The position numbers and the translations under genes are program-made. A DNA stretch of 20,047 bases from a virus: the IMG/VR virus record IMGVR_UViG_3300031673_000618, positions 1-20,047 of that record; one strand, 5' to 3'. The notes under the pieces were generated by a model. That model made no database searches. It had not been told where the DNA came from and was given only the letters and a program-made list of their open reading frames with translations. Within the stretch, counting starts at the first letter, position 1, and each line of letters opens with the position of its first letter. Of the stretch, positions 1,300 to 4,452 are shown piece after piece.

Positions 1300-1307
1300 T
1301 ATCTTTG
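1300..1307 (+). promoter_or_regulatory. Bacteroidota-type promoter, -7 box TATCTTTG
   Basis: TATCTTTG fits the TAnnTTTG -7 consensus of the primary sigma factor of Bacteroidota. A weak -33 candidate, TTTC at 1275-1278, lies 21 bases upstream. Transcription would begin near 1310-1314, just before the first pairing element of the structured leader, and would read into the replication gene at 1412. Confidence 0.65.
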
Positions 1308-1315
1308 TAAAAATA

Positions 1316-1395
1316 ACGACCAAATGAAACTTAATTTTTTTTATAATGCCCTTGTTAAAGATGCCTCTTGGTCGTGGCTATTTGATGAGGGCATT
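1316..1395 (+). promoter_or_regulatory. Structured 5' leader, H-type pseudoknot-capable
   Basis: A stem is formed by AATGCCCT (1345-1352) and AGGGCATT (1388-1395), a perfect 8-bp match that extends inward to 1359/1381 (15 pairs in all, three of them G-U). The loop contains TTGGTCGT (1368-1375), which is the exact complement of ACGACCAA (1316-1323) at the predicted 5' end of the transcript. Together these form an H-type pseudoknot. A second ATGCC at 1361-1365 could compete for the same 3' strand. The structure ends 16 bases before the ATG of the replication gene. I do not recognise a known riboswitch class; translational or attenuation control of that gene, or an origin/operator role of the DNA, is inference. 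Confidence 0.5.
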
Positions 1396-1411
1396 TCTAA
1401 TTTATAATATT

Positions 1412-2125: not shown

Positions 2126-2516
2126 TAATGGTGCAATAAGTATCTATAACGGAAAGCTAAGTAAAGAAGGAATCAAAAAGAACTGCTTAAAGATATTAGC
2201 AGCGTTTGAAAAGACTGATGCGATGTTTACCGATTTGCTAACCGAGAGTCTTAAAAGAAATGGCTTTACTGATGAAAGATTTACCGATGCAGTAAACTAT
2301 GTGATTGACAACTGCCGCTATCCAAAGCCAAGCATAGCAGATTTTGTGAGTTATGATAAAAGCATAAAGGTTTATACTTGGCAAGATATGGCAAACAATT
2401 CTTTTGATTTTTATAAATTTGTTCAGATTCGTATAAGTGCCGAGCAAAGCAAACCATTATACATAAGACAAGAAGATTTTGAAACGAATAATTTTATAAG
2501 ATATGAAAATACTTGA
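2055..2516 (+). CDS. Hypothetical, possible helicase-loader-type protein
   Basis: A 153-residue soluble protein. Its middle (FTDERFTDAVNYVIDNCRYP followed by KPSIADFVSYD, about residues 71-100) resembles the N-terminal helical domain of G39P/loader-type phage proteins, in which a helix is followed by a Pro-Ser-x-Ala-Asp turn; this is weak, pattern-level evidence. Its position right after the replisome-organiser gene also suits a loader, as in many phages. The gene starts 71 bases before the upstream stop in another frame; the A/C-rich leader before 2055 favours this start over later ones. Its end overlaps the methyltransferase gene by 14 bases. Confidence 0.6.
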   Translation: MEKLSEILHKSNLSNPLTSISRIDNGAISIYNGKLSKEGIKKNCLKILAAFEKTDAMFTDLLTESLKRNGFTDERFTDAVNYVIDNCRYPKPSIADFVSYDKSIKVYTWQDMANNSFDFYKFVQIRISAEQSKPLYIRQEDFETNNFIRYENT

Positions 2517-3153
2517 ATTATTTGCTGGTAGTCGGTCAATAGGAATGGCAGCCGAATCTTTAGGGCATCAAGTTTTTTCTGTAGATATAAATGCATTTAA
2601 AAATATTGATTTGTTAAAAGACATTGAGTTTTTAAATGTATCAGATGTGCCATTTAATCCAGATATGATTTGGGCATCTCCACCTTGCACAACTTATTCC
2701 ATAGCTGCAATAAGCACACATAGAGATAATGGAAAACCTAAAACAAAATTTGCAGTTAAAAGTGATAAACTTGTTTTAAATGTTTTAAGGTTAATAAAAC
2801 AATTTGATTGTATTTATTATATTGAAAATCCAAGAGGCTATTTAAGGAAAATGAATTTTATGCTTGGAATACCTAAAACTACTGTTTGGTATTGTAAATA
2901 TAAAGACAAAAGAGCAAAGCCTACTGACATTTGGAGTAATAACATTTACAGCCTATTTAATGAAAATGGATGGAATCCAAAACCAATTTGTTTCAATGGA
3001 AATATTAAATGCCATCACGAAGCTGCACCAAGAGGATCAAAAACTGGAACACAAGGATTAAAAGACAACTATACAAGGTCTAAAATTCCAAAAGAATTAT
3101 GCCTGGAAATAATAAAAGCAACTGAAAAAACATTAAATTTAAAATATGATTGA
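2503..3153 (+). CDS. DNA (cytosine-5) methyltransferase homologue, short type
   Basis: The 216-residue protein carries C5-methyltransferase hallmarks: motif I ELFAGSRSIG (about 5-14) for S-adenosylmethionine, the acidic end of motif II (FSVDIN), motif IV SPPCTTYS with catalytic Cys62, and motif VI IENPRG (108-112). The region with YCKYKDKRAKPTDIW and the C-terminal CHHEAAPRGSKTGTQG are features I associate with phage Dcm-like enzymes. There is no long target-recognition domain, so it is much shorter than bacterial Dcm or HhaI (over 320 residues). It probably methylates phage DNA to evade host restriction. No cognate restriction gene is obvious. The following small gene overlaps its stop (ATG at 3146). 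Confidence 0.85.
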   Translation: MKILELFAGSRSIGMAAESLGHQVFSVDINAFKNIDLLKDIEFLNVSDVPFNPDMIWASPPCTTYSIAAISTHRDNGKPKTKFAVKSDKLVLNVLRLIKQFDCIYYIENPRGYLRKMNFMLGIPKTTVWYCKYKDKRAKPTDIWSNNIYSLFNENGWNPKPICFNGNIKCHHEAAPRGSKTGTQGLKDNYTRSKIPKELCLEIIKATEKTLNLKYD

Positions 3154-3363: not shown

Positions 3364-4026
3364 ATGAAACCAATTAAAATATTAAATTTATACGCTTGTC
3401 TTGGTGGCAATCGTTTTAAATGGGATGAAGTAGCAGACATAGAAGTGACTGCTGTAGAACTTGATGAAGAACTTGCTAAACTTTACCAGGAAAGATTCCC
3501 AAAGGACAAAGTAATAGTTGCAGATGCACATCAATATTTAAGAGAAAATTATGAAGAATTTGATTTTATTTGGACATCTCCCCCTTGTCCAACGCATAGC
3601 AGAATGAGAAAAACAAATACTGGAGAAGGTGAAAGAAAGTCTAAAGCAACTTATCCAGATATGAAGCTGTACCAAGAAATATTATTGTTGCAACATTTTT
3701 TTAAAGGCAAGTATTGCGTAGAAAATGTTATACCTTATTACGATCCGTTAATAGCTGCAAAAAAAAGAGGTAGGCATCTATATTGGACAAATTTTAATCT
3801 TCCTTATAATTTAAACGAAAGAAAAATTTCAGGCGGTTTATTAACAAATGATTTAAATATTTTATGCAAATTTCACGATTATGATTTTACAAAATATAAA
3901 GGAAAACAAAGGAAGGATAAAATTGCAAGAAATTTAGTAGATTATGAAGCTGGCAAAACTATATTGCAAACAGCTTTAGGAATAATTAAAGACAATAATA
4001 AAGAGCAACAAAAATTATTTAACTAA
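3364..4026 (+). CDS. Second DNA (cytosine-5) methyltransferase homologue
   Basis: A 220-residue C5-methyltransferase-like protein from a different branch than the one at 2503. Motif I is NLYACLGGNRFKW (about 8-20), the motif II acid is in VTAVELD (28-34), motif III is VADAHQYL, motif IV is SPPCPTHSRM with catalytic Cys75, motif VI is VENV (119-122), a motif VIII-like RGRHLYWTN follows at 135-143, and a motif X-like tail has RNLVDYEAGKTIL. A separate target-recognition domain is hardly present (short insert near 150-185). It presumably modifies phage DNA; its target sequence cannot be read from the protein. It sits in the same operon as the first enzyme, with its own A/C-rich leader. Confidence 0.83.
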   Translation: MKPIKILNLYACLGGNRFKWDEVADIEVTAVELDEELAKLYQERFPKDKVIVADAHQYLRENYEEFDFIWTSPPCPTHSRMRKTNTGEGERKSKATYPDMKLYQEILLLQHFFKGKYCVENVIPYYDPLIAAKKRGRHLYWTNFNLPYNLNERKISGGLLTNDLNILCKFHDYDFTKYKGKQRKDKIARNLVDYEAGKTILQTALGIIKDNNKEQQKLFN

Positions 4027-4041: not shown

Positions 4042-4452
4042 ATGAGCAGAGAACTAATAGGGAAACTTTTACAGATTATACAAGACTATCCAGAGTACAG
4101 CGAAGAAATAAATTTAACCATTCACCGAATATCACCTAAAAGAAGTGGTCATCATTTAAGTAATGTGGTGTTAAGTTACATTGAAATACTATGTAATGAT
4201 TTAGGTGTAAACAAAAACTACTTTTTTAAAAAAAGATCTAGGGATGTTTTGTATTATCGATATAGTTTGATAGCATGGGTAAAGTATAATACATCTATGA
4301 GCCTTACCGACATTGGAAAGCTATTTGGCAACAAAGACCATAGCACAATCATAAACGCTTTAAACGAAGTGAAAAACGCATTGCATCCAAACAGCTATAA
4401 CCAACCATTAAGTGATACCTACCATAAGGTAAAGGAAGCATTAGAGCAATAA
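4042..4452 (+). CDS. Stand-alone DnaA domain IV-like DNA-binding protein
   Basis: This 136-residue protein has the helix-turn-helix of DnaA domain IV at about residues 63-112: KKRSRDVLYYRYSLIAW matches the start of the domain, and the signature segment is IGKLFGNKDHSTIINA (91-106; bacterial DnaA has IGxxFGgrDHSTVxxA). In DnaA this domain binds DnaA boxes. There is no AAA+ domain, so it cannot load helicase by itself. The first 60 residues are helical and unrecognised. Flanking replication and recombination genes suggest that it binds the phage origin, hijacks host DnaA sites, or regulates transcription; which one is open. Own A/C-rich leader; 10 bases separate it from the next small gene. Confidence 0.85.
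   Translation: MSRELIGKLLQIIQDYPEYSEEINLTIHRISPKRSGHHLSNVVLSYIEILCNDLGVNKNYFFKKRSRDVLYYRYSLIAWVKYNTSMSLTDIGKLFGNKDHSTIINALNEVKNALHPNSYNQPLSDTYHKVKEALEQ

Follow-up and report, generated by a model that had tools for sequence, protein, structure and literature searches.

The window, i.e., the whole stretch of DNA analysed here, is a 20,047-base IMG/VR virus record in which a replication-initiation gene occupies positions 1412-2125 of the plus strand. The encoded protein has an N-terminal DUF6291 domain (Pfam PF19808, E = 1.5e-23) and a DnaD-like C-terminal part, and it matches PHROG entries for replication initiation protein and DnaD-like helicase loader (E = 1.5e-27 and 7.5e-26). Inside the gene, the low-complexity linker between its two domains contains four to five 12-bp direct repeats (TGATAATGTTAA, 1705-1757). 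Farther downstream, the window encodes two short DNA C5-methyltransferase-like proteins near each other (2503-3153 and 3364-4026; 216 and 220 aa), both of which match the N-terminal part of PF00145 only, and a 136-aa protein (4042-4452) with a DnaA C-terminal DNA-binding domain only (PF08299), similar to genes annotated in phages tooticki, phi10:1, phi13:2 and phi19:1. Upstream of the replication gene is a Bacteroidetes-type -7 promoter element, TATCTTTG (1300-1307, plus strand), recognised by its sequence motif, and transcription probably starts a few bases 3' of TATCTTTG.

The leader between this promoter and the ATG contains, all on the plus strand, a 5' kissing segment termed a (ACGACCAA, 1316-1323) that is the exact complement of a loop segment, a' (TTGGTCGT, 1368-1375), the latter identified by sequence and by the descriptor defined below. 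Segment a' sits in the loop of a terminator-like hairpin whose 5' arm (AATGCCCTTGTTAAA, 1345-1359) and 3' arm (TTTGATGAGGGCATT, 1381-1395; delineated by fold and covariation) are paired at 15 positions, the outer 8 being Watson-Crick pairs. In the MFE structure, an inner 3-bp helix (GCC/GGC; 1363-1365 with 1376-1378) closes the loop, and a U-rich tail (ATTTCTAATTTA, 1394-1405), imperfect in this allele, lies 3' of the hairpin. The nested part of the leader alone folds at -23.6 kcal/mol (z = -3.3), a value equalled by none of 200 shuffles. As defined here, the element begins within ~20 bases of the promoter motif TAnnTTTG and heads a replication-initiation operon, and this is the arrangement found in the window. 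An earlier, sequence-only reading of this DNA had described the 15-pair stem, the 8-base complement, both ATGCC/GGCAT sites and the ATG at 1412, and all of its coordinates proved correct when checked on the sequence, as did its statement that the structure opens directly after the promoter and closes just ahead of the replication gene. That reading also proposed two mutually exclusive folds, in which a second ATGCC (1361-1365) could take over the pairing with GGCAT (1390-1394). However, the alternative fold is 10 kcal/mol weaker (-13.5 vs. -23.6 kcal/mol) and was not observed in other alleles, and we have not retained it.

The window allele was found in only one other contig (L010/L012), which differs in the stem at 1357 (A to G) and 1387 (G to A), with pairing kept at both positions. 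A 27-codon ORF runs across the leader (MKLNFFYNALVKDASWSWLFDEGISNL, 1324-1407, plus strand) and was considered as a possible leader peptide, yet it was judged incidental: other alleles lack a corresponding ORF, and both L010/L012 differences are nonsynonymous while preserving pairs.

Related phages carry leaders built on a general plan that consists of a TAnnTTTG promoter, a 5' hairpin (P1), a short linker, a terminator-like hairpin, a U-tract and a replication-initiation operon. In this plan, the loops of P1 and of the terminator hairpin match each other as exact complements over 6-9, mostly 7-8, Watson-Crick pairs, and TAnnTTTG directly precedes the element in the window and in nearly all relatives. 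Altogether, 44 distinct leaders carry 26 kissing sequences in a constant geometry. At ten related IMG/VR loci, the promoter-to-ATG stretch falls into three sequence types that have little similarity and the same plan. In type B, the arms GCGT/ACGC enclose the loop ATGGGAC and are followed by a second hairpin, ATCAAA/TTTGAT, which encloses GTCCCAT and lies within GGCTTAT/ATAAGCC ahead of a T-tract. In type C, ATCGT/ACGAT encloses AACGCAC, CTTGCA/TGTAAG encloses GTGCGTT within AGGCTTT/AAAGCCT, and again a T-tract follows; at two type C loci, TGCAAG replaces TGTAAG, so that a G-U pair becomes G-C and pairing is maintained. In each type, the two 7-nt loops are fully complementary to each other. 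Cultured phages of Flavobacterium, Cellulophaga, Olleya and Croceibacter carry the element in varying sequence, and the leaders of three of the cultured phages, tooticki, morran and mumin, have different loops. The window allele is a divergent member, with an 8-bp contact, an imperfect U-tract and a P1 that is at best a weak A-U stem; the P1 hairpin is clear in most other alleles. The pseudoknot described by the sequence-only reading stands as a loop helix and requires correction in its topology, since in most relatives the contact is a kissing interaction between two hairpin loops, the second of which is terminator-like.

Judged from the comparative evidence, the feature in the window is one allele of a widespread ~100-nt leader RNA whose structure is conserved and whose sequence is variable. 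It appears to represent an undescribed RNA family shared among phages from several genera with Flavobacteriia as hosts, and a published description was not found in the open-licence literature searched, including PMC2864571 and PMC8040213. Several searches delimited its distribution. No convincing element was found in phi38:1, phi18:1, phi14:2 or RAP44. A blastn search of one leader against phages returned no matches, consistent with sequence turnover, and most loci returned by a GTTATTA-hairpin pattern scan were without the element. Scans of bacterial genome contigs, whose prophage coverage was ineffective, found no relatives, and plasmids gave two weak matches to the replication protein only. 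By eye, five leaders 5' of DUF6291 genes (L164, L166, L168, L169 and L174) are longer and have a GGAGG...CCTCC outer stem; with a possible G.U-containing loop contact, this class is perhaps another branch of the same element. Two side observations concern related contigs: after position 2662 of L021, a gene resembling GTP cyclohydrolase I (by eye) stands where the leader and the replication gene would otherwise follow, and L001 contains two matches to the DUF805b RNA family (RF02914; 510-547 and 2712-2746).

With respect to genomic placement, the element at DUF6291 loci mostly lies directly before the gene where the gene opens an operon. Several DUF6291 loci without a nearby element have another gene upstream, and some elements are located hundreds to thousands of bases upstream. 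By eye, the plan is also recognisable at several loci scored negative, whose contacts are 6 nt long or contain G.U pairs; these loci were not counted. The distance from element to ATG ranges from 0 to >300 bases and the first gene varies: other replication modules headed by the element are operons that encode a ResIII helicase (mumin/snusmum), a DnaD-like loader (phi18:3) or an HTH protein (P2559S), and, in L006 and L010, it precedes proteins with different N-termini and the same C-terminus. Exceptions are a second copy ahead of an endonuclease gene and ssb in tooticki and one at ~23.5 kb in the Baltivirus phages phi13:2 (23462) and phi18:3 (23584). The positions recorded for second copies before genes not known to initiate replication are L238 11590 and these two Baltivirus sites.

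The comparative check suggested by the sequence-only reading, i.e., a search for compensatory changes in homologous leaders, was performed and strongly passed. The loci were chosen for encoding proteins similar to DUF6291, and a structure-blind MAFFT alignment was made of 24 distinct leaders from one subfamily; the divergent leaders L219, L223 and L236 were excluded, and the tested pairs were read from L181. Across P1, the kissing helix and the terminator stem, 96.4% of cells in this 24-leader alignment pair, compared to 76.7% when shuffled, and double-sided changes occurred at 28 of 35 pairs. The covariation score was 0.615, vs. 0.10-0.15 (maximum 0.146) for partners slid by 1-3 columns, and none of 500 shuffles reached it. 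In the kissing helix itself, all seven pairs have changed on both sides among the 24 leaders and 97.6% remain paired; on this alignment, the tertiary loop contact is seen to covary as strongly as the stems. A scan of IMG/VR by the 5'-hairpin sequence alone returned 36 distinct leaders, a set that partly overlaps the 24, and every one of them (36/36) had the exact loop complement at +60 to +62, against a null expectation of 0.4%. Sister phages of the same Flavobacterium hosts, with leaders that are otherwise similar, differ in their loops with exact compensation (GTGAGACG/CGTCTCAC, GTGAGAAG/CTTCTCAC and GTGGAACG/CGTTCCAC). The loops change in step across viruses, and this shows that the loop-loop lock matters. 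When a covariance model of the nested part was built from the 24-leader subfamily only, it gave 12 matches over 610 kb at E values up to 1; 11 were leader sites, distant cultured phages included, and the twelfth, in RAP44, was without a kissing partner. Thus, the compensatory changes support the earlier proposal that the leader is a structured RNA, located in cis, in which a loop segment forms a pseudoknot helix.

Rarity was assessed separately with a descriptor consisting of the promoter, at least 7 Watson-Crick pairs between a and a', a stem of at least 6 pairs enclosing a', and a T-tract. Since the descriptor itself requires complementarity, its tests measure rarity and not covariation. The window scored 55.4, which was reached by 0 of 200 dinucleotide shuffles, and the descriptor found nine of nine leaders, with 0 of 1800 dinucleotide shuffles reaching the score of their leader. 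At 981 promoter-like sites, taken from the window and from several phage genomes or regions, it gave nine matches (shuffles, 0/981), eight of which were replication-operon leaders and one of which precedes an endonuclease gene. Among 1925 promoter sites at 168 loci, the high scorers were the known leaders and two further leaders of equal spacing. Pairing of the loops over 8 bp is far from chance.

In close relatives, leader and flanks differ in their degree of identity. Between L004 and L001, identity is 90.3% in the upstream flank and 96.1% in the downstream flank, as against 54.5% in the leader (47% when shuffled). Conversely, the leader of the window is 97.8% identical to that of L012 with an upstream flank at 84%, and the leaders of L003 and L004 are 97.7% identical with upstream flanks at 76.7%. 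These contrasts between flank and leader identity show that leaders move as blocks between a conserved promoter and the start codon, and leaders replaced in close relatives have unrelated sequence and the same architecture. Such block exchange fits selection on allele identity; neutral recombination could also have caused it.

Several features indicate that the element functions as RNA and that its second hairpin resembles a terminator. The terminator stem retains many conserved G.U pairs in the 24-leader alignment; since these would be mismatches in a DNA cruciform, they argue for RNA rather than DNA. In addition, 53 of 59 raw element matches were in sense orientation. The terminator-like stem has a median hairpin dG of -20.9 kcal/mol, and in 42 of 44 alleles at least 5 of the next 8 bases after the stem are T. 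In one subfamily, a T7 tract abuts the ATG and the stem ends just 7 bases 5' of it. From these properties we infer that the second hairpin and U-tract constitute an intrinsic terminator. A strict intrinsic-terminator scan with short loops returned no terminator in the window, whose allele may terminate poorly, given an imperfect U-tract and a weak P1 stem.

On balance, the element is probably a transcription attenuator controlled by the kissing loops, and the RNA that it releases may feed back, allele-specifically, on the leader it came from. Transcription would either end at the second hairpin, with release of a kissing-hairpin RNA of ~100 nt, or continue into the replication genes, and kissing between P1 and the terminator would set the balance between the two outcomes. 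Less certainly, the released RNA, carrying both loops, could pair with their counterparts on leaders still being transcribed, and such trans pairing would provide allele-specific, copy-number-dependent feedback on replication in sense orientation. Trans feedback of this kind would account for the exchange and diversification of loop alleles under retained complementarity. Its fullest form, in which the released RNA is an allele-specific trans regulator serving as a sense-only, purely RNA-based copy-number and superinfection-incompatibility system with cassette-swapped alleles, is put forward tentatively and seems to us possible without being probable. Weighing against attenuation are the imperfect U-tract and weak P1 of the window allele and the compatibility of the kissing helix with the terminator stem, which makes it hard to see how termination would be tuned. 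In addition, elements resembling this one precede, in a few phages, genes without a known part in initiating replication.

The element might instead control translation, opening of the structure at the start codon setting initiation of the replication gene, perhaps via a phage protein. The subfamily whose stem ends 7 bases before the ATG would suit such a role, as would the unstructured, A-rich leaders of other starts in the window; however, the wide range of ATG distances, the varying first gene and the tight U-tract after a strong, G+C-closed stem, a terminator-like combination, make it unlikely. Since a promoter and a terminator amount to a complete small-RNA gene, and since the loops are variable and whole leaders are swapped as cassettes, the main product could also be a trans-acting phage small RNA directed against host or competing-phage targets, the replication gene being merely downstream. 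Against this, the loops occupy each other in cis and co-change, so that any target elsewhere would need to follow the two together, and the element mostly heads a replication operon in sense orientation; we regard this explanation as improbable. A location immediately after the promoter and a topology conserved without sequence would likewise be expected of a structured RNA that modifies RNA polymerase (a put-like cis antiterminator) or of a protein-binding site. However, known put-type recognition depends on particular nucleotides, and no unpaired nucleotides common to the alleles were seen, which leaves this possibility distinctly doubtful. An origin-linked role, in which the transcript primes or activates replication in a ColE1-like manner with the repeats at 1705-1757 as origin, draws on the adjoining replication genes, on the position of the repeats within the gene and on an allele diversity that recalls plasmid incompatibility. 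The origin of lambda lies within gene O, and the repeats are a possible origin; however, they encode a low-complexity linker, the leader-to-gene distance varies and some elements are elsewhere, and we consider this role very improbable. Finally, a DNA cruciform or operator (the origin/operator option of the sequence-only reading, prompted by inverted repeats that are present in the DNA too) or chance complementarity is scarcely credible in view of the conserved G.U pairs, U-tract and sense bias on the one hand and the shuffles, structure-blind covariation, promoter-site scan and 36/36 scan on the other.

Should the element control replication, it would reveal how the supply of replication initiator is metered in these phages, and it would bear on whether co-infecting phages recognise each other through RNA loops. 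Since topology and complementarity are conserved and the letters are not, sequence-based family searches would miss elements of this kind.

Comparison with known RNAs identified resemblances in parts. The Rfam comparison proposed earlier matched the element to no family: none in Rfam 15 reached the gathering cut-off, the best sub-threshold matches were at chance level, and the c4 model (RF01695) gave no gathering-level match in the window and 19 related loci. Single leaders scored 19.0 with the S15-Flavobacteria leader (RF03161; gathering 46.5) and 16.6 with 6S-Flavo (RF01685; gathering 85), families that have their host clade in common with the element and whose scores are far below gathering. 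Apical loops of ~7 nt pair mutually in purine riboswitches and in ColE1 RNAI/RNAII. However, unlike the purine riboswitch, the element has no conserved ligand-binding nucleotides and its sequence varies while pairing holds; by inspection, conserved unpaired nucleotides, the riboswitch criterion, were absent across relatives. Ligand sensing, as once suggested for this leader, is thus unlikely, since the alleles have the architecture in common and not the loop or junction sequence. In ColE1, by contrast, RNAI/RNAII kissing joins two antisense molecules. The put antiterminator of HK022 also has two hairpins, which act on RNA polymerase so that later terminators are read through, and its resemblance to the element is topological only.

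Closer parallels exist among replication leaders. In the antisense-attenuated leaders of pT181/pIP501-type plasmids and the loop-loop leaders of IncFII/IncI plasmids, as in the present element, the leader of a replication initiator carries a structure or terminator before the start codon, and loop complementarity sets specificity. In contrast to these leaders, the element has both complementary loops in one transcript and belongs to phages, not plasmids. A pT181-type countertranscript is unlikely since the antisense promoter motif is nearly absent: a TAnnTTTG on the antisense strand within 300 bases occurred at 1 of 44 loci, below background, in a search for the consensus motif only. The CI RNA of phage P4 and the c4 antisense RNA of P1 lead a replication or antirepressor operon; their leaders contain segments complementary to each other, terminate transcription prematurely and confer immunity that is specific to the allele. 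The element is like them in leading a replication operon and in its internal complementarity, and differs in having a single loop-loop pair, one half of which lies in an intrinsic-type terminator. Lastly, in Salmonella Gifsy-1, according to the abstract of PMC4825925, one promoter yields two transcripts, the small terminated RNA IsrK and a longer mRNA made by read-through, on which IsrK acts in trans. IsrK involves other genes and another host, and that abstract makes no mention of a kissing-loop terminator; however, it provides a precedent for a terminated RNA that acts on its own read-through mRNA (PMC4825925).
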